From contig JAFGKV010000084.1 of NCBI GenBank assembly GCA_016928395.1, positions 1-15,408 of the forward strand: a DNA stretch of 15,408 bases, read 5' to 3'. The notes under the pieces were generated by a model, which was not told where the DNA came from, ran no database searches, and saw only the letters and a program-made list of their open reading frames with translations. This stretch comes from Candidatus Fermentibacterota bacterium (GTDB lineage: Bacteria > JAFGKV01). Positions 3,568-12,084 of this stretch are shown here, in pieces. Every line of letters starts with the position of its first letter. The stretch's first letter is position 1. Both the position numbers and the translations under genes were made by a program.

Positions 3568-3718
3568 GCACTCTTGTTTGAGAGAACGCGCGCCGCACGC
3601 TCGACTCCTCGAACTCTGATAGTGCCGCCGTCAGAAGCCCTGCTGAACAGAGAAGTCAGTCAAGAGAGCGGGGCTACGGCTGGCTGAGACGACACGCAGG
3701 ATGCCGGGAGAGTGTCCG

Positions 3719-4228
3719 ATGCACGCAAGCAGCGTCGAGGCGATTGCCGATGCCCTGAGCCGTGCGAACGTACGGTATCTCGTTGTCGGTGGATTGGCGG
3801 TGGTTGCACATGGCCACCTGCGGTTCACCGCTGACATCGACATCGTCCTCGACCTAAAGAGGTCGAACGTCGAGGCCGCGATGACCGCCTTGGCCGCGCT
3901 CGGTTACCGGCCCAGGGCCCCGGTGGCCTTGGCCGAGTTCGCCGATCCTGCCATGCGCGCATCGTGGGCTCGGGAGAAAGGCCTGAGGGTCTTCTCCTTG
4001 TGGAGTGCCCTGTATCCGGCGACTGAGATCGATATCTTTGTCGAGGAGCCGTTCGACTTCACCGAGACCTACCGGAGAGCAGATCTGGTGGAGATCCTTC
4101 CGAGTCTGACCCTGCCAGTTGTGGCCATCGATGATCTTCTTGCCCTCAAGCGCGCCGCCGGCCGGCCGGTGGACTTGGAGGATGTGCGGGCGTTGGACGC
4201 TCTGCGGAGGGATCGTGGAGAGGACTGA
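3719..4228 (+). CDS. Nucleotidyltransferase-fold protein (MNT/AbiEii-like)
   Basis: The product is 169 aa with the minimal nucleotidyltransferase signature: V-G-G-L-A-V-V-A-H-G (23-32), then R-F-T-A-D-I-D-I-V-L-D (35-45), whose D39 and D41 are the metal-binding pair, and a later E-I-D-I-F (about 105) that supplies the third carboxylate. A C-terminal helix with D-D-L-L-A-L-K-R-A-A-G-R-P-D/E-D is typical of this group, in which proteins attach nucleotides to proteins or RNA and often serve in toxin-antitoxin pairs. ATG at 3719 is chosen over the ATG at 3701 because GGGAG lies 6-7 bases before it. The 3' end overlaps the start of the next small gene by 14 bases. The fold is sure; the target is unknown. 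Confidence 0.8.
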   Translation: MHASSVEAIADALSRANVRYLVVGGLAVVAHGHLRFTADIDIVLDLKRSNVEAAMTALAALGYRPRAPVALAEFADPAMRASWAREKGLRVFSLWSALYPATEIDIFVEEPFDFTETYRRADLVEILPSLTLPVVAIDDLLALKRAAGRPVDLEDVRALDALRRDRGED

Positions 4229-4460: not shown

Positions 4461-5432
4461 TTACTTCACCGCCCCCGGAGTGACGATGCGCACCAGGCCC
4501 TGATCGCCGGCCTGCCCCACCACCGTCTTCCGGCTCACCTTGGAGAGCGCTTCGTTGAGGAACTCCAGATGGAGCCTCCGCCGCGTGACCTCGGGAGCGC
4601 GCGCGTATTCGGAACGAATGGAGGCAAACCTCTCGGCGTCACCCTGGGCCCTGGTGATAATCCGTGTCTCATACGCTTCGGCATCGCGGATCAATCGATC
4701 GGCGCCCGCCTTGGCGCCGGGCATTTTCTCGTTCTGGTAGGAGAGGGCGTTGTTGATCATCTTCTCCTTGTCGATCATCGCATTAATCACGTCGTTGAAG
4801 TACTCCTGGACCCGCTCGGGCGGGCGCACCTCCTGAAGTTCAACGGCGGAGACGGTCAAGCCGGACTCCATCTCGTCGAGCCGGCGTTGAAGCTCCCGTT
4901 TGACGTCGATCTGGATCGCCGACTTGCCAATGGTGAGGATGTCATCGATGGAAAGCCGCGAGAGGCTTGCGATCAGTGCATTGCATGCGAAGCTCCGCAA
5001 TGTCCTTTCGGGCTCCTTCATGGAGAAGAGATAGCGTGCCGGGTCGCTGATGGCATACTGCAACACGCAGTTTACCGTCACGATATTGTTGTCGCCGGTG
5101 ATCAAGTATGACGACAGGCCCGTTGCTTCACGAAAGGCGGCAGCCAGTTCCCCTTGCTCGTAGAAATCATCTATGGTGATGCGCTTGACCTGGCGCACCG
5201 GGACTCGGACGACCCGATCAATGGGCCACGGGAATGCGTAGTGCATGCCGGAGGGTACGCCACTGTCAATAACCCTGCCGAATCGCATCACCACGCCCAC
5301 CTGGCTGGGATCGATCGAGTAGATCCCGGAGGCGCAGTACGCGATGACCGCTGCCACCAGCAGCCACGCGGCGAATACGCCGGTCTTGCGCGCGGATCCT
5401 CTGAGTTCAGTGCCGTATCCAGAGCTCGTCAT
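4461..5432 (-). CDS. hflK: HflK-like SPFH/band-7 protein
   Basis: The product is 323 aa: a short cytoplasmic N terminus, one membrane helix (about 18-38), then an SPFH domain beginning I-D-P-S-Q-V-G-V-V-M-R-F-G (40-52). The HflK hallmarks H-Y-A-F-P-W-P-I-D (64-72) and I-T-G-D-N-N-I-V-T-V (111-120) are present, followed by a long helical region rich in Ala/Glu/Arg with the Q-G-D-A-E-R-F signature of HflK/HflC. HflK and HflC form a cage in the membrane around the FtsH protease and limit its access to membrane substrates in E. coli. It is the last gene of a three-gene SPFH operon, starting 2 bp after the hflC stop. No ftsH is in the window. The usual E. coli order (hflK before hflC) is reversed for this copy. 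Confidence 0.88.
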   Translation of the reverse strand: MTSSGYGTELRGSARKTGVFAAWLLVAAVIAYCASGIYSIDPSQVGVVMRFGRVIDSGVPSGMHYAFPWPIDRVVRVPVRQVKRITIDDFYEQGELAAAFREATGLSSYLITGDNNIVTVNCVLQYAISDPARYLFSMKEPERTLRSFACNALIASLSRLSIDDILTIGKSAIQIDVKRELQRRLDEMESGLTVSAVELQEVRPPERVQEYFNDVINAMIDKEKMINNALSYQNEKMPGAKAGADRLIRDAEAYETRIITRAQGDAERFASIRSEYARAPEVTRRRLHLEFLNEALSKVSRKTVVGQAGDQGLVRIVTPGAVK

Positions 5433-5434
5433 GG

Positions 5435-6328
5435 CTAGTTCCGGCCTCCGCGCGGCTTGCTGGAGCCCAAGTACTTGAAGAGCTCGGACTCAGTCGAGAG
5501 GATGAGGGTCGATTTCTCCGTGAGTGCGGCCCGATACAGGTCCAATGACTTCAGGAATTCGAAGAACTCAGGGTCACGGCCATACGCCTGGGCGTAGATC
5601 CTGGCGGCCTCCTGATCCCCTCTCCCCTTGGCGATTTCGGCCTGTTTGTAGGCCTCTGCCAGGATCTGAGATACATCCTTGTCGGTGGCCGCCTCGATCC
5701 GGGCGGCGGCCTCCGTACCCTCGGCACGGTACTTACGCGCCTCCTTCTCCCGTTCGGCTCTCATCCGGTTGTACACGGCATCGGCCACGATGGCAGGGTA
5801 GCTTACCCGTCGGAACCCGATGCGCTGGGTCTCGATGCCGTACTTGTCGCGGGCATGGGGGGCCGTCGCGTGCAACACGAGGCGCTCCAGCTCCTCCAAC
5901 TTCACGCGCTTTGGGTCAGGATTCAGGATATCCTCCAACGCATAGTCGGCCAAGGAAGCACCCAGGGCAGAGACGACCATGTCGCCCAACTTCTGACGAG
6001 CAACCTCGGGCCTGGCCAGGGAGCGGAAGTAGAGGAGCGGGTCGGCAACTCGCCACGCGATGAAAGTGGTGGCGATGATGGGGTTCTTGTCGCCCAGAAG
6101 GAGCTGGATTGGCTGGGTATTGAAGACCTCGGTTCGCGCATCCATGCGATTTACGCGCTGGAGGAATCCTGGTAGTTTCCAGCGGAACCCTGGTTCGGTG
6201 ATGGTGGCCACCGGCTTCCCGAACTGCGTCAGGATGGCTGCCTCTCCGGCTTCGACCGTGAAGGTGGAGTAGCGTACTAAGAGTGCCGCGACGACGAGGG
6301 CAAGTGCGGATACTCCCCACCGTTTCAT
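5435..6328 (-). CDS. hflC: HflC-like SPFH/band-7 protein
   Basis: The product is 297 aa: one N-terminal membrane helix (about 4-22), then V-E-A-G-E-A-A-I-L-T-Q-F-G-K-P (25-39), an HflC-type SPFH start, with P-G-F-R-W-K-L-P-G-F (46-55) and R-M-D-A-R-T. Next come the HflC-type G-F-R-R-V-S-Y-P segment, M-R-A-E-R-E-K-E-A-R-K-Y-R-A-E-G, and the Ala/Glu-rich helix ending in Y-A-Q-A-Y-G-R-D-P-E-F-F-E-F-L-K-S-L. These are diagnostic for HflC, the partner of HflK in the FtsH-regulating membrane cage. ATG at 6328 is preferred over an upstream GTG because GGAGG sits 7 bases before it. The start overlaps the upstream fusion gene by 4 bases (ATGA), giving tight coupling. Confidence 0.9.
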   Translation of the reverse strand: MKRWGVSALALVVAALLVRYSTFTVEAGEAAILTQFGKPVATITEPGFRWKLPGFLQRVNRMDARTEVFNTQPIQLLLGDKNPIIATTFIAWRVADPLLYFRSLARPEVARQKLGDMVVSALGASLADYALEDILNPDPKRVKLEELERLVLHATAPHARDKYGIETQRIGFRRVSYPAIVADAVYNRMRAEREKEARKYRAEGTEAAARIEAATDKDVSQILAEAYKQAEIAKGRGDQEAARIYAQAYGRDPEFFEFLKSLDLYRAALTEKSTLILSTESELFKYLGSSKPRGGRN

Positions 6329-8106
6329 TGTTGTACCTCCCACTGGAGCGCCTGCGGCGCCGGCAGTGCCGGCATGTCGAGGAAGAGGGTCGGTGTGCGG
6401 GTCTTCGGATCCACCAGCGTGACGGCGGAGCTTCCGAAGACTTCGATGAGCGCATCCATGTAGAGCCGTGACAGCGTCACACCCCGCTCGAGTGGCTCCC
6501 TCACGCGCCTGGCCAGAAACCGCTCGGCGTCTCCCTCGGCCCGCGTAACACGTTGTGTGACATAGGCGTTGGCCTGCTCTATGGTGCGTATGGCCTCACC
6601 CCGGCGTTGGGGAATGAGCTGGTTCTGGTACCCATGGGCTTCGTTGATGCGTTGTTCTTTCTCCTGGCGAGCGGCGATCACCTGTTCGAAGGCATCGGCG
6701 ATAAAGATGGGCGGATGAATATCGCGAAAGTGGACCCCGAGAATCTCCATGCCACCAAGGAGCGAGTCAGTCTCCGCCTGCACCAGTTCCTTGATGCGGG
6801 ATTCAAGCGCCCCCCGCTCCTTGCCGACGATATCATCGAACTCGCTGCCTGCTAAGACCCGGGAGACTACGCTGTGGGCAATGCTGTCCAGCAGCTTCTC
6901 CGGTTCAGCGTGGGCCATGAGATAGTGAAAGACATCGGCGATCCGGTAGTGGAGGACGACATAGGGGAAAAAGAAGCTGTTGTCGCCAGATAGAAACGGC
7001 TGCTCGGTGCCGTGAGCCCGCGTCCACAGTAGGGCAAAGGCCCCGGGGTCAGTGACATTGCCAAGGTTTACCTGCCGGACGAGGTAGGGATCAATCTTGA
7101 CCGGCCGGTCGATAGGCCATGGCAGCTTCAGATGAAGCCCGGAATAGACCGGGCGCCCCTCGTTGAGGGGCCGCCCCAGCCGGGTGAGGATCGCCGCCTC
7201 AGAAGGCCCCACCGAGTAGACCGCGGTGGACAGGTAGATGAGGATCGCCAGGCCGATTAGGTGGAAGCGAAGAGCCGTCGCACGACGATGTCCTGAGTGC
7301 AATCGGTCAACGATCCGCCAGCCGCTGACCGATTCCAGCCATCGGGCGGCCTGGACAAGCTTCTCCCGTCGCAGTGACGAAAACACGATCTGAGCGAGGC
7401 GCATGTGGGCTATGGCATGGGTGTCGCCCCGTACCCGGGCCGTGGCGGTGGCCACCAGCGTCTCAACTCCGAAGGACAGCACGAACAGCGATATCAGAAC
7501 CGCCACCGGCCGATCAACGTCGATGCCCAAGGAGTAGAGGATCAAGGCGGCCCCGGTCATCACCGCCCCGATCATGTCGGCCTTGGAGTGCATGCCGTCA
7601 GAGATTAGCCCCACCGATCCTTCACGGGCTCCGACCGATGTCTCGAATCGATAGACGAAGTAAGAACCGACCGCGAAAAGAAAGAAGATGATGCCCGATA
7701 GCATGGGGCGCGAAATGCCCGCCTTGGGAAGCACGGCGATCTTTTGCATGACCCCAAAAGCCACGATGACCAGCAGGATGCCGATACCGAAGGCGACAAA
7801 GTGCTCAAGGCTCGTGCGCCGGAGGAACGCCTTCAGGGCGCTCGGCGTTCTCTCAAGGCTCGCCTCGGCCGTCTCCGAGTCTACCGCAGGGGGTGCAGAG
7901 GCTGGTTCCTGCCCAGAGCCGCCTGTCGAGGAGGGCCTTGTTACCGACAAGAGAACCAAGAGCGAGGTGCCCACATCGGATACCGAATGCCACGCCTCCG
8001 CCAGAATCGCCAGGCTGCCGGTCATGGCATACACAAGGAACTTGAGCAGCGAGAGCAGGAGATTGAGCCCGGTTGAGAGGATGCCGGCCTTTGTTTTTAT
8101 ATCCAT
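6325..8106 (-). CDS. Fusion: cation diffusion facilitator membrane domain + HflK-like SPFH domain
   Basis: The product is 593 aa in two parts. Residues 1-215 form a six-helix CDF transporter core: helices near 10-29, 31-54, 101-121, 136-153, 165-191 and 197-214. It keeps the paired metal ligands H40-S-V-S-D44 in helix 2 and H173-S-K-A-D177 in helix 5, as in zinc/iron efflux transporters. A Ser/Pro/Glu-rich insert (about 56-95) separates helices 2 and 3. The usual CDF cytoplasmic C-terminal domain is replaced by a linker, a seventh helix (about 282-297) and an HflK-like SPFH domain (P-S-E-A-A-I-L-T-R-L-G at 301-311, L-P-W-P-I-D at 328-333, S-G-D-N-S at 373-377, E-G-D-A-E-R-F at 524-530). An even helix count before helix 7 puts the SPFH part outside the cytoplasm, as in HflK. 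It leads the operon; GGGAG lies 8 bases before the ATG. Metal transport and cage formation together are inferred. Confidence 0.88.
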   Translation of the reverse strand: MDIKTKAGILSTGLNLLLSLLKFLVYAMTGSLAILAEAWHSVSDVGTSLLVLLSVTRPSSTGGSGQEPASAPPAVDSETAEASLERTPSALKAFLRRTSLEHFVAFGIGILLVIVAFGVMQKIAVLPKAGISRPMLSGIIFFLFAVGSYFVYRFETSVGAREGSVGLISDGMHSKADMIGAVMTGAALILYSLGIDVDRPVAVLISLFVLSFGVETLVATATARVRGDTHAIAHMRLAQIVFSSLRREKLVQAARWLESVSGWRIVDRLHSGHRRATALRFHLIGLAILIYLSTAVYSVGPSEAAILTRLGRPLNEGRPVYSGLHLKLPWPIDRPVKIDPYLVRQVNLGNVTDPGAFALLWTRAHGTEQPFLSGDNSFFFPYVVLHYRIADVFHYLMAHAEPEKLLDSIAHSVVSRVLAGSEFDDIVGKERGALESRIKELVQAETDSLLGGMEILGVHFRDIHPPIFIADAFEQVIAARQEKEQRINEAHGYQNQLIPQRRGEAIRTIEQANAYVTQRVTRAEGDAERFLARRVREPLERGVTLSRLYMDALIEVFGSSAVTLVDPKTRTPTLFLDMPALPAPQALQWEVQQ

Positions 8107-8245
8107 ACCATGTTCTCCCTACGCATGCAGGGGCCCCGGACGGCCCGGACTACACACGGTGTGACTCCCAGGGCTGCTGCCCGAAGTCAAAGCTCAGAGC
8201 AACGAACCTCAGGAGCCCCGCCCGCGTGCGCCGCGGATCGATTCC

Positions 8246-8274
8246 CATCTACAAGGATCACCGACCCGTGTCAA
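8246..8274 (-). promoter_or_regulatory. Candidate sigma-70 promoter of the SPFH operon
   Basis: On the minus strand a perfect TTGACA (8274-8269) is followed, after exactly 17 bp, by TAGATG (8251-8246), matching 3 of 6 bases of TATAAT including its first two. Transcription would start near 8238, giving a leader of about 130 nt before the CDF-SPFH start at 8106. It is the best housekeeping-type promoter seen in this gap, but it is called by eye. Confidence 0.42.
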
Positions 8275-8337
8275 CCCAGCATCACCTCTCGGTGGTGTCT
8301 CCCCACTAGGGGTACCCGATCTTCGTGGCGTGGCCTC

Positions 8338-8676
8338 TCAGTGATCACACAGGTTGTCGCCCGTCTGGAGCGTGCCGTCGAGGTAGGCGGCGACCACGCG
8401 TTCGGGCGTCTCACAGGGCGCGCCGACCACCACCTCGATGCCCTGCTGGGTGAACAGGCCCTGGGCCCGGCCACCCATGCCGCCGGCGATGATCATCGTG
8501 GCGCCGCGCTCGGCAAGCCAGCGGGGCAGGAGGCCGGGTTGATGGGGAGGTGCGGGGAGGGCCTCCTGCTTCGTGACGGTCTTGGTGGCCGTGTCTACAT
8601 CAACCAGCGCGAACTGTTGGCAGTGGCCAAAGTGGGCGCATAGTCTACCTTCGGCGACGGGGATGGCGATACGCAT
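8338..8676 (-). CDS. NifX/NifB-like (dinitrogenase FeMo-cofactor family) protein
   Basis: The product is 112 aa and is a single NifX-type domain: M-R-I-A-I-P-V-A at the start, C-A-H-F-G-H-C-Q-Q-F (13-22), G-A-T-M-I-I-A-G-G-M-G-G-R-A (58-71), and a C-terminal D-G-T-L-Q-T-G-D-N-L-C-D-H. This is the small stand-alone family (MTH1175-like) that binds Fe-S or Mo/Cu-S clusters and occurs in ORP-type loci of anaerobes, unlinked to nitrogen fixation. GGAG precedes the ATG at 8676 by 7 bases. It follows the IscU-Mrp gene by 40 bp and closes the cluster, so the Mrp-like protein may deliver a cluster to it; that is inference. No nif structural genes are in the window. Confidence 0.88.
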   Translation of the reverse strand: MRIAIPVAEGRLCAHFGHCQQFALVDVDTATKTVTKQEALPAPPHQPGLLPRWLAERGATMIIAGGMGGRAQGLFTQQGIEVVVGAPCETPERVVAAYLDGTLQTGDNLCDH

Positions 8677-8716
8677 GAACGAGCTCCTTTTCAGTGAAGT
8701 ACATGACAGACCATAC

Positions 8717-10000
8717 TCAGGTCGAGAGACGGCGGCCGATCTCATCCACGATGTGCTGCATGATCGACGCAGATGCCGAATCATGCGCTTCAATGATCGG
8801 TATGCCACTGTCGGCCAGTTCGGCGACCCGGGGGTCGATGGGGATGGAACCCAAGAAGGGGATTTGCATGTCTTTGGCGATTCGCTGCCCCGCGCCCTCC
8901 TGCAAAATGGAGGTGATCGTTCCGCAGTGGGGGCAGGCGAATGACCCCATGTTCTCCACAATCCCAAGTATTGGGGCGCCCAGTTTCCTGCAGAAGGTAA
9001 CGGACTTCCTGACGTCGATCTCGGCAACCCTCTGGGGCGTGGTCACGATGACGGCGCCGTCGACTGTGCCCAGTAGCTGGAAGACCGACAAAGGCTCGTC
9101 GCCGGTGCCGGGAGGGGAATCGATGATCAGGAAATCCAGATCTCCCCAGGCAGCGTCCTTTAGAAGCTGGCGGATGACCCCCATCTTCATCGGACCCCGC
9201 CAGATCACGGCGTCATCGGCGCTTTCGAGAAAGAACCCGAGGGAGAGTACCTTCAGGCCGTCTCGGCTGACGGGCAGAAGTTCACCATTCTGCGCATACG
9301 GTTTCTCTCCCTCCAGGCCTAGCATGGTCGGTACGCTGGGGCCGTGAAAATCCACGTCGAGTAAGCCGACGCTGTTGCCGTTCTTGGCCAATCCCACGGC
9401 GAGGTTCACCGCTACGGTGCTCTTGCCCACACCGCCCTTGCCCGAGAGCACGACGATCTTGTGTCGGATCCGGCAGAGGCGTTGCTGGAGCGCTTGCCGT
9501 TGCGCGAACTCCTCGTCGCTCTCATCCGGGCGGCGAGTCTGCGCGGAGCAGCTTCGGTCGGTACAGGAGCTGCACTGGGCTCCCGCGGCGGAGGAGGGGG
9601 GGGGCTCATGTCGCTGTGCGGCAGCCTTGGCGTAGTTCTCGCAGGCGGCGCGCAGCGTAGCGGCAGCGAGGGCCGCACAGTGACCTACTTCGTCGGGCAG
9701 ACCTCCCAAAGCCTGAATGATATCACTTTGGGTAATGGAGGCTGCATCCTCCAAGCTCTTACCCTCCGCCAAGGTGGTTGCCATGCTGCCGCAGGCCAGT
9801 GACGGGGCACATCCATCCGTCGTGAACGTTGCCCGCTCAACCACATCGTCCCGCACCATGACCCACATCTCCATGGTGTCGCCGCACTCGCCGGTGATGC
9901 GTGCGTGGCCATTGGAAAGCAAGGGTTTGCCGTAGTTGCGTGGCCGTTGGGCATGTTCGATTACTGTGGCCGTGACGTGAACGACCTCGCCGTCTTCCAT
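8717..10000 (-). CDS. mrp: IscU/NifU-like scaffold domain fused to Mrp/ApbC-type Fe-S carrier ATPase
   Basis: The product is 427 aa. Residues about 10-128 form an IscU-like scaffold domain with E-C-G-D-T-M (C39, D41), D-G-C-A-P-S-L-A-C-G-S (C64, C70) and G-H-C-A-A-L (C108), i.e. the three cluster-binding cysteines and the aspartate, plus an extra Cys70. A linker carries C-S-S-C-T-D-R-S-C (143-151). From residue 180 it is a full Mrp/NBP35 P-loop ATPase: S-G-K-G-G-V-G-K-S-T (186-195, deviant Walker A), D-S-P-P-G-T-G-D-E (294-302) and the C-P-H-C cluster-bridging motif (356-359). It probably builds and hands on Fe-S clusters. ATG at 10000 is used because GGAGGG lies 4-5 bases before it; the GTG at 10018 lies upstream of this ribosome-binding site. 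The fusion joins scaffold and carrier in one chain. Confidence 0.9.
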   Translation of the reverse strand: MEDGEVVHVTATVIEHAQRPRNYGKPLLSNGHARITGECGDTMEMWVMVRDDVVERATFTTDGCAPSLACGSMATTLAEGKSLEDAASITQSDIIQALGGLPDEVGHCAALAAATLRAACENYAKAAAQRHEPPPSSAAGAQCSSCTDRSCSAQTRRPDESDEEFAQRQALQQRLCRIRHKIVVLSGKGGVGKSTVAVNLAVGLAKNGNSVGLLDVDFHGPSVPTMLGLEGEKPYAQNGELLPVSRDGLKVLSLGFFLESADDAVIWRGPMKMGVIRQLLKDAAWGDLDFLIIDSPPGTGDEPLSVFQLLGTVDGAVIVTTPQRVAEIDVRKSVTFCRKLGAPILGIVENMGSFACPHCGTITSILQEGAGQRIAKDMQIPFLGSIPIDPRVAELADSGIPIIEAHDSASASIMQHIVDEIGRRLST

Positions 10001-10207
10001 CCATCCCTCCTCGTGCACTCAGCACACAGGTTCACAAGAACATCGGTATTCGACCGCGCCGCGTCATCCCGGGCGGTTGGATTGCTCGCTCGATAGGGCC
10101 GGGGAATCTTGGGCCTTTTCGTTTTCTTCGCCACCCCTAAGGCGCCTCAGGAGCGCACACAGGGAGTCGGCCGATCGAGCCGCGACACGAAGGGTGACTC
10201 GCCTCAA

Positions 10208-10462
10208 TCAGTTCCCACACGGGGGCTTGTCGCACCGCTCCTGTCTGCCGCAGCAGGTTGAGCCCGTCTGTTGCAGCGAACACGCCGTGTTCCCGCGCCC
10301 GCGTTCGTCTGCTTGGCCAAAGAGGATACCTCCTCCTCCACTTATGATTCGGCGTACCTCCTTCCCACACACCGGACATACACTCAGCGGCGCATCAGTC
10401 ATGCCTTGGCGTTGTTCGAAGCGGTGCCCGCACACGGTGCACTCGTACTCATAGGTTGGCAT
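10208..10462 (-). CDS. FmdB-family zinc-ribbon protein
   Basis: The product is 84 aa. M-P-T-Y-E-Y-E-C-T-V-C-G-H-R-F-E (1-16) and C-P-V-C-G (about 29-33) form the FmdB-type zinc ribbon (two CxxC knuckles), first seen as a putative regulator beside formamidase and formylmethanofuran dehydrogenase genes. The Gly-rich middle and the Cys-rich tail (T-C-C-G-R-Q-E-R-C, then P-P-C-G-N at the end) are also common in this family. GGAGG stands 6 bases before the ATG. It lies inside the ORP-like cluster, 197 bp after the NifX-like gene and 207 bp before the IscU-Mrp gene; those gaps hold no convincing gene. A metal-binding accessory or regulator is the likely role. Confidence 0.85.
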   Translation of the reverse strand: MPTYEYECTVCGHRFEQRQGMTDAPLSVCPVCGKEVRRIISGGGGILFGQADERGRGNTACSLQQTGSTCCGRQERCDKPPCGN

Positions 10463-10659
10463 GGGCTACCTCCGTGCTATGCACAACGCAGCGGTTGAAC
10501 CCACCCGCCGGCAAAAGGATCCCGCGCGGCCCTTGTAGGCGCACCGTGACCAGGTTACGCGCATCGGCTACCGAAGCATCACGGTTCGGCGCGCGGCGCG
10601 GCAGACCCACCCGCAGATGGTGCACTTTGGCTCACCGTGTCTTGACTCGAAGCTTCCGC

Positions 10660-11019
10660 CTACCAGTGACTCTCTACATCGGCGCCCTCAGCTTCATGCA
10701 GCCTCCCCAGCTTGAGCGCCTCCAAGGCCTCGCCAACTGTCGGCAGGTCGGCATTGTAGACGACCACGCCGGCAGCCTGGAGCACACGGAAGGCTTTTGG
10801 GCCGCAGTGACCGGTAATGAGCGCATCTGCCCCGGCCTGGGCCACGAATTGTGCGGCCTGCACACCGGCGCCCTGCGCTGCCTGCAGGTTCTGGGCATTG
10901 TCCAACACGGTGAATTCGCCACTCTCCGTGTCGTAGACCAGGAACTTGGGGGCGCGGCCGAACCGGGTGTCCAACGGTGCATCCAAGGTGTCGCCAGAGG
11001 TGGTACAGGCAACTCTCAT
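10660..11019 (-). CDS. NifX/NifB-like (dinitrogenase FeMo-cofactor family) protein
   Basis: The product is 119 aa, a single NifX-like domain: M-R-V-A-C-T-T-S-G-D-T-L-D-A-P-L-D-T-R-F-G-R-A (1-23), then G-A-D-A-L-I-T-G-H-C-G-P-K-A-F-R-V-L (about 65-82) and a G-A-D-V-E-S-H-W C terminus seen in this subfamily. 'GHCGPKAF' is the loop that usually lines the cluster pocket. ATG at 11019 is preferred over an upstream in-frame start because GGAG lies 6 bases before it. It is separated from DUF5320 by 80 bp that contain a perfect 19-bp inverted repeat. It belongs to the same minus-strand series as the two other NifX-like proteins but to a different subgroup from the one ending at 8338. Confidence 0.9.
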   Translation of the reverse strand: MRVACTTSGDTLDAPLDTRFGRAPKFLVYDTESGEFTVLDNAQNLQAAQGAGVQAAQFVAQAGADALITGHCGPKAFRVLQAAGVVVYNADLPTVGEALEALKLGRLHEAEGADVESHW

Positions 11020-11043
11020 AAGTATCTCCTTGGCAGGGGAGCA

Positions 11044-11083
11044 CATGCGGCTTCCCACGGCAGATGCCGTGGGAAGCCGCATG
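11044..11083. repeat. Perfect 19-bp inverted repeat between DUF5320 and NifX-like genes
   Basis: CATGCGGCTTCCCACGGCA (11044-11062) is the exact reverse complement of 11065-11083, with only 2 bases between the arms, so a very stable hairpin forms on either strand. It lies wholly in the 80-bp gap: about 16 bp after the DUF5320 stop and 24 bp before the NifX-like start. No T-run follows in the minus-strand direction, so it is more likely an RNA stability, processing or attenuation element within the operon than a simple terminator. Confidence 0.75.
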
Positions 11084-11099
11084 CGGGGGGGCAGAAGCT

Positions 11100-11486
11100 C
11101 TACTCGTTGGCGGCCTTTGCCTCCAGCTCTTCCAGGCGCTTCCTCAAGAACTCCAGCTCCGACTGCAGCGCCTCAGCCTGGCTTCTGAGCGCCTGCTTCT
11201 CAAACTCAGGGTCCGGCATCTGAGGGGCCGGATACCCATAGGGCGCAGGATACCCGACACCCCATCCCTGGGCTGCAGGCACTCCGTACGGCAGGCGGCC
11301 CCATCCGGCGCCGAATCCTCGACCTCGACCAAATCCCCGGCCGAAGCCCCGGCCAAACCCTCTGCCGTATCCCCAGCCCATTGCTGGGTTCGCGTACCCG
11401 GGCATGGTGTTACCCGAGCAATACCCGGCGCCGCGGCCGGTCATCGGTCCTGCTCCAAACGGTCCAGTGCGATCTCCGCCTGGCAT
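11100..11486 (-). CDS. DUF5320 protein with Gly/Arg/Phe repeats and a coiled coil
   Basis: The product is 128 aa. The N terminus M-P-G-G-D-R-T-G-P-F-G-A-G-P-M-T-G-R-G-A-G-Y-C (1-23) is the DUF5320 signature, a family that repeatedly neighbours NifX-like and Mrp-like genes in anaerobes. The middle holds tandem R-G-F-G units (42-59) and a Gly/Tyr/Pro-rich stretch to about 91. The end (93-127, F-E-K-Q-A-L-R-S-Q-A-E-A...L-R-K-R-L-E-E-L-E) is a heptad-like coiled coil. A single Cys (23) is present. AAGGAGGT stands 5 bases before the ATG. It starts 19 bp after the upstream NifX/zinc-ribbon gene stops. The function is unknown; a flexible, oligomerising metal-cluster partner is inferred. Confidence 0.88.
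   Translation of the reverse strand: MPGGDRTGPFGAGPMTGRGAGYCSGNTMPGYANPAMGWGYGRGFGRGFGRGFGRGRGFGAGWGRLPYGVPAAQGWGVGYPAPYGYPAPQMPDPEFEKQALRSQAEALQSELEFLRKRLEELEAKAANE
11310..11363. repeat. Tandem repeat encoding Arg-Gly-Phe-Gly units
   Basis: Within the DUF5320 gene, residues 42-59 (R-G-F-G three times, then R-G-R-G-F-G) are encoded by near-identical 12-bp units at 11310-11363. Units of this kind can expand or contract by slippage; the protein stays in frame because 12 is a multiple of 3. Confidence 0.6.
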
Positions 11487-11505
11487 TATGCACCTCCTTC
11501 GTGAA

Positions 11506-12084
11506 CTATTCCCGTGTCAAGGGAAGCCCGCATTTCGGGCATTGGCTCTGATTGCACGGAACCCCACGTTCATGAGGCTCCCTGTGTCCGCATTGTGGGC
11601 ATACGCAGAAGCCGCCCGGGCCACCCGCGAACTGGCCGCCCATTCGGCCACGCCCACCACCCTGAAGATTGCCGCCCCGCCCATCCGCACTTTGCATGAT
11701 TCCTCCTTCCCGCCGGCCGAGACCCCGCGTGCGGCCATGGCGTCTTCCCCTGCCGCATCCCGGCATGGCATACGCCTCGGCACCCAGAGTACGGTCAAGC
11801 CAGGCCTGCACTACCTCGGCCAAAGTCCCCGTCACGAACGGGGATACATGGATGCCGTAGGCGGCCACCATGGTACGAAGGGGATACGAGATCGCTCCGC
11901 ACACCAGTTCATTCACGGCGAGTTCCGCCAGTCTGATGGCTTTGCCGGCAGGCGAATCCAACGGCAGTGTCGTCCGTATCTCGGCTACTATCCGCCCTGC
12001 GGTCGCGTCGACGACGTGGATATGGCCGGCCGTGTCGAACACCGGCGCGATGCGCTCATTCCAGACTGCAAAACCGGCTCGCAT
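11506..12084 (-). CDS. NifX/NifB-like protein with C-terminal zinc ribbon
   Basis: The product is 192 aa. Residues 1-95 are a divergent NifX-type domain (M-R-A-G-F-A-V-W-N-E-R-I-A-P-V-F-D at the start, L-V-C-G-A-I-S-Y-P-L in the middle). A Gly/Arg-rich linker (about 105-155) leads to a C-terminal zinc ribbon with C-V-C-P-Q-C-G and C-N-Q-S-Q-C-P-K-C-G. This NifX-linker-ribbon plan is typical of ORP-like loci in anaerobes. It is the first gene of the cluster. A sigma-54 promoter lies 34 bp upstream of the ATG, and AAAGGGA serves as ribosome-binding site. Cluster or metal binding is inferred from the family; there is no sign of nitrogen fixation. Confidence 0.82.
   Translation of the reverse strand: MRAGFAVWNERIAPVFDTAGHIHVVDATAGRIVAEIRTTLPLDSPAGKAIRLAELAVNELVCGAISYPLRTMVAAYGIHVSPFVTGTLAEVVQAWLDRTLGAEAYAMPGCGRGRRHGRTRGLGRREGGIMQSADGRGGNLQGGGRGRMGGQFAGGPGGFCVCPQCGHREPHERGVPCNQSQCPKCGLPLTRE

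Follow-up and report, generated by a model that had tools for sequence, protein, structure and literature searches.

A gene fusing a cation diffusion facilitator core to an HflK-type SPFH domain heads a recurrent three-SPFH cassette with alternative transporters

Organisation of the CDF-HflK1 locus

The window, which is the whole 15,408-nucleotide stretch of DNA that was analysed, includes a gene on the minus strand at positions 6325-8106 that encodes a single protein of 593 aa. No internal stops were found when this reading frame was inspected, and a Shine-Dalgarno-like AGGGAG read from the sequence 8 nt upstream of the ATG (8115-8120, minus strand) is the likely ribosome-binding site. In the Pfam search, residues 9-219 (7450-8082, minus strand) matched the cation diffusion facilitator (CDF) family (Cation_efflux, PF01545; E 1.6e-13, 51.4 bits against a cut-off of 26.6). 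Six helices are predicted in this core from a crude hydropathy scan, which found the expected helices and did not call the ligand-bearing helix 2 separately. Two metal-ligand pairs, H40-xxx-D44 in helix 2 (7975-7989, minus strand) and H173-xxx-D177 in helix 5 (7576-7590, minus strand), are invariant in an alignment of nine sequences (alignment A1), and the loop between helices 2 and 3 is unusually long (about residues 57-97). A cytoplasmic dimerisation domain is common among CDF proteins, though not universal, and no Pfam match to one was found in the fusion protein. It is replaced by a linker of about 50 aa (7282-7431, minus strand) that includes no Pfam domain.

The linker is followed by a predicted seventh transmembrane helix (7213-7281, minus strand; hydropathy peak at residues 276-302), located where HflK has its single anchor, and at this helix alignment A1 shows an SGxYxVxPGExAI motif common to the fusions. 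Residues 298-492 (6631-7215, minus strand) form an SPFH domain (Band_7, PF01145; E 3.2e-18, 66.8 bits against a cut-off of 23.6). The SPFH part scored 147.1 bits against the NCBIfam HflK model TIGR01933, for which the cut-off is 159.4, and is therefore HflK-like yet under the curated line. Hence, the assignment to the HflK type made in a first-pass annotation of this DNA agrees with the position of the domain in the HflK class of the SPFH tree (see below) but not with the curated cut-off. The other parts of that description, namely an uninterrupted frame of 593 aa in which a CDF core is joined to a seventh helix with an SPFH domain behind it, two intact HxxxD pairs and the absence of the CDF cytoplasmic domain, were borne out by the open reading frame and by the Pfam and NCBIfam matches, and the helix topology fits an SPFH domain in the periplasm. 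An AlphaFold model of the fusion, for which the input was two sequences, had a mean pLDDT of 34 and was set aside.

The next gene on the same strand encodes HflC (5435-6343; TIGR01932, 177.8 bits against a cut-off of 134.4). Its likely start is an internal ATG at 6328, from which the gene overlaps the fusion gene by 4 bp. A second HflK, designated HflK2 (4461-5432, minus strand; TIGR01933, 236 bits against 159.4), starts 2 bp past HflC. The coordinates and cut-offs thus agree with the overlap, the spacing and the HflC and HflK identities annotated earlier. The gene order in the window, HflK1-HflC-HflK2, is that of the three-SPFH cassette of the hmtA type discussed below. In the window, no separate P-type ATPase gene was found after HflK2, and no open reading frame on the same strand directly follows it. 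The next gene downstream of the operon is on the opposite strand and encodes a small nucleotidyltransferase-like protein of the DUF6036/AbiEii type (3701-4228, plus strand).

A search upstream of the fusion gene for an operator or promoter gave nothing convincing, and no inverted repeat was found in the intergenic region (8107-8337), little of which could be aligned with the related locus L008. Directly upstream of the operon (8338-12084, minus strand) lies a cluster of Nitro_FeMo-Co (ORP-like) genes together with a gene for a NifU_N-Mrp fusion (8717-10018). In 6 of 16 genomes, representing 4 of 13 genera, proteins of the Nitro_FeMo-Co family are encoded at most 10 kb away from the fusion, whereas 0.28 would be expected by chance (P about 2e-4, a rough estimate that assumes about three clusters per genome). 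This neighbourhood may be a hint, though a weaker one, of an iron-sulfur or molybdenum-copper connection, and it leaves the metal of the fusion unsettled.

Distribution of the fusion and conservation of the metal site

A scan of the genome collection with the fusion protein singly recovered one relative only. With a profile of the CDF-SPFH junction, the full fusion was found in 16 of 386 sampled genomes. It is nearly universal within two other phyla, where 7 of 8 genomes and 16 of 20 have it, and is also carried by a plasmid of Aquibium oceanicum. In Candidatus Eisenbacteria Prado127 (locus L008), which belongs to the same genus but to another species, the same three genes are present and the fusion is 71% identical. 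An assembly join or frameshift, named in the first-pass annotation as a possible source of the fused frame, was ruled out by this separate assembly and by the distant homologues.

The survey of the domain pair and its neighbours proposed in that annotation showed that the fusions recur almost always directly before HflC and HflK. As judged by 14 measured trios, HflC and then HflK2 follow the fusion in a fixed order with gaps of -7 to +43 bp, and this conservation of order and spacing upholds the earlier view of an operon-like coupling in which the three SPFH proteins form a set. Only one of the first 17 fusions, that of L051, lacks adjacent HflC and HflK2 genes. It is a lone CDF-HflK fusion (7272-9086 of L051) that precedes a phosphoglucose isomerase gene and has a long branch in the tree.

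Both HxxxD pairs, in helices 2 and 5, are intact in 36 of 40 fusions, the H40/D44-type pair being kept in 37 and the H173/D177-type pair in 39. Among the four exceptions, one sequence is cut by a contig end, L102 and L138, both members of a single genus, no longer have the His of helix 2, and L108 has Asn in place of Asp in helix 5. Thus, the general loss of ligands in homologues that would have argued against a working transporter is not seen. From these alignments, the metal site of the CDF fusions is evidently under strong constraint, which supports the earlier reading of the core as one that would function in metal transport. A diverged CDF-HflK1 protein in which most of the ligands are lost (L056, 6352-8832) is encoded in a taxonomic family that also includes intact fusions.

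Cassettes with other transporters

The arrangement X-HflK1, HflC, HflK2 recurs with a CDF core, an ArsP_1 permease or a heavy-metal P-type ATPase as X. ArsP_1 is fused to HflK1 in ten loci, two of them from one genome; the trio was found in L058, L059, L114, L116-L119, L123 and L124, and in L115 the fused gene alone is visible in the stretch examined. Upstream of some of the ArsP-HflK trios there is one more HflC-like gene (L058, 3991-5992; L116, 9679-10587), and between this gene and the fusion L058 encodes a protein of 343 aa whose start resembles a signal sequence. A P-type ATPase is fused to HflK1 in the same trio in L113 (1040 aa). The genome that includes L113 (G267) has two trios, the other being L104 with a fused CDF.

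In a further form, found in L061, L070 and L109-L112, the P-type ATPase has a gene of its own, placed after the HflK2 gene of the trio. This four-gene form is also present on annotated plasmids of Burkholderia, Paraburkholderia, Rhizobium and Klebsiella, and on the Paraburkholderia plasmid the cassette has genes for metal ABC transporters and for a copper chaperone nearby. Of five separate ATPases that were inspected, four have the CPC motif of heavy-metal pumps, as does the fused ATPase, and L111 has CPT. Plasmid matches from Vibrio, Photobacterium, Roseibium and Methylophaga were rejected as cassettes, since the three inspected were ordinary HflK-HflC pairs, and were used as outgroups.

In a tree of 120 SPFH domains, the split between HflC and HflK was fully supported, and HflK1 and HflK2 both fell in the HflK class. 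Locus clusters largely agree across the HflK1, HflC and HflK2 trees, a pattern that joint inheritance of the trio would produce. However, the CDF locus L049 lies among ArsP loci and the ATPase-fused L113 among CDF loci. These placements, in a tree that comes from a quick search and includes many weak branches, suggest that the transporter has been swapped between trios.

In L109-L112 and L060, the latter a short locus that shows no ATPase or trio context, HflK1 has an N-terminal membrane domain that lacks the ligand pairs. This domain aligned with the CDF profile at 97% in hhalign (E 1.2e-10, 243 columns), as compared with 3.4% and 0.1% for control alignments of ArsP and P-type ATPases, respectively. 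The ligands are also lost in the HflK1 membrane domain of the plasmid relatives; the domain from Burkholderia, Rhizobium and Klebsiella matched the L109-L112/L060 group at 97% but did not match CDF directly (47%). The ATPase form of the cassette therefore seems to carry a CDF relic in HflK1, the evidence from these shallow alignments (five sequences each) being good but not final.

Comparison with known systems

The fused CDF core resembles YiiP/FieF and ZitB in its six helices with one ligand pair each in helices 2 and 5, but lacks their cytoplasmic metal-binding domain and is joined instead to the seventh helix and the SPFH domain. Its ligand set is HD-HD, as opposed to DD-HD in YiiP.

The closest described arrangement is in Pseudomonas aeruginosa, where the PA2434-PA2439 cluster includes the P-type ATPase HmtA (PA2435) and three proteins of the HflC/HflK family, PA2437, PA2438 and PA2439 (PMC4542158). 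Like the cassette, this cluster combines three HflK/HflC-family genes with one metal transporter and has an HflK-family gene, PA2439, first. The layout is shared by the plasmid cassettes of Burkholderia, Paraburkholderia, Rhizobium and Klebsiella, PA2439 being likened to their HflK1 by its published layout. The transporter is, however, a separate ATPase, whereas in the window HflK1 is fused to an intact CDF core and the trio is not followed by an ATPase gene. Transcripts of PA2439, PA2438, PA2437 and hmtA were reported to be raised 5.6-14.4 fold in a znuA mutant (PMC4542158), and the HmtA, PA2438 and PA2439 proteins to increase on zinc depletion, with a significance that varied by method (PMC11761036). 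Zur with zinc is reported to bind the PA2439 promoter, and in the same study hmtA mRNA was low and not zinc-repressed (PMC8531726). HmtA has been reported as an importer of Zn and Cu, a direction that reviewers describe as still unconfirmed. In the portions of the P. aeruginosa literature available, no discussion was found of the reason for which a metal pump is encoded together with SPFH proteins, and no description was found in the literature searched of CDF or ArsP fusions to HflK or of an exchangeable cassette.

PacL proteins, which are unrelated to SPFH proteins, provide a further parallel. In the mycobacterial PacL effluxosome, as reported, a membrane scaffold is likewise grouped with metal transporters (PMC13043812).

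Proposed role of the cassette

Taken from sequence comparison, the trio is probably a dedicated SPFH assembly with a built-in transporter for a divalent metal, most likely zinc, as indicated by the HD-HD ligand set and the parallel with hmtA. CDF proteins are usually exporters; they are carriers, as a rule metal/proton antiporters, and the term metal channel used in the first-pass annotation is therefore not appropriate. What we infer is assembly into one complex, together with its metal, its direction of transport and its benefit. The six-helix core of CDF-HflK1 would transport the divalent metal (Zn2+ being the likeliest) through the inner membrane. The seventh helix would set the HflK1 SPFH domain on the periplasmic side beside HflC and HflK2. 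As both belong to the HflK class, HflK1 and HflK2 would be expected to form a ring with HflC in which either of them can take the HflK positions, in alternation with HflC. The benefit would be either the clustering of the transporter in a microdomain or the enclosure of its periplasmic mouth. A more specific form of the latter, in which the transporter belongs to the subunits of an HflK/HflC-like dome that covers its periplasmic mouth, the metal is handed over inside the chamber and not in the open periplasm, and a CDF, an ArsP-type permease or a P-type ATPase can serve interchangeably, is tentative and rather doubtful.

The three-SPFH operon PA2437-PA2439 is presumably paFlo5-paFlo6-paFlo7 of strain PA14. 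Its triple deletion is reported to leave growth and the response to oxidative stress unchanged, to lower biofilm by about 20% and to attenuate the strain in Galleria; these effects are small and count against a dedicated transport assembly, and the available text of the report mentions no metal test (PMC13086221). The lone fusion of L051, the ligand losses in L102, L138, L108 and the diverged L056, and the hmtA mRNA that zinc did not repress (PMC8531726) also speak against it.

The transporter may instead be merely attached to a membrane microdomain or concentrated in one, in the manner of an effluxosome, with neither an enclosed chamber nor FtsH. This is a reasonable possibility, though not the expected one, and is compatible with a dedicated transport assembly except in its geometry. 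A scaffold and a transporter share one operon, the transporters are exchangeable, and PacL effluxosomes of Mycobacterium tuberculosis are a published analogue (PMC13043812), but E. coli SPFH proteins of the HflK/HflC type build closed or nautilus-shaped cages (PMC12048511), and a plain raft is therefore not the sole expectation.

HflK and HflC surround FtsH in E. coli (PMC12048511), and the HflC and HflK2 of the window are full members of these families above the curated cut-offs, with the HflK1 SPFH domain likewise following one anchor helix. The trio could thus modulate FtsH, the CDF core sensing or supplying metal and the SPFH cage tuning proteolysis. However, the window differs from the E. 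coli system in having three SPFH genes, in the order HflK1-HflC-HflK2, rather than two, and in the six additional helices with a metal site in HflK1. An FtsH-like open reading frame was found in none of the loci examined, the genome of the window retains an ordinary HflK-HflC pair (G000:C24; L064, 5216-7134), and several genomes with the fusion have more HflK matches on other contigs. Three unrelated transporter types are exchanged, which argues for transport as the constant theme. The earlier link to FtsH and membrane proteolysis hence gained no direct support; FtsH involvement is possible, but a role as FtsH modulator is unlikely.

That the CDF core is only a membrane anchor which helps the SPFH ring to assemble, with no transport, is very improbable. 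In its favour, the P-type ATPase variant keeps the six-helix domain despite the loss of all ligands, and the domain thus has some value without transport; against it, 36 of the 40 CDF fusions, from distant phyla, keep both ligand pairs.

Conclusions

SPFH proteins of the HflK/HflC type have been studied mainly as regulators of FtsH. A cassette in which a metal transporter accompanies three SPFH proteins, with three kinds of fusion in distant phyla, points to an additional function of the scaffold that is connected with transport. The cassette offers an explanation for the HflK/HflC genes that zinc starvation induces next to hmtA in P. aeruginosa, and the question becomes testable within one operon. 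Its recurrence in many bacterial phyla with different metal transporters suggests that a protein-quality-control scaffold may also work with metal transporters.
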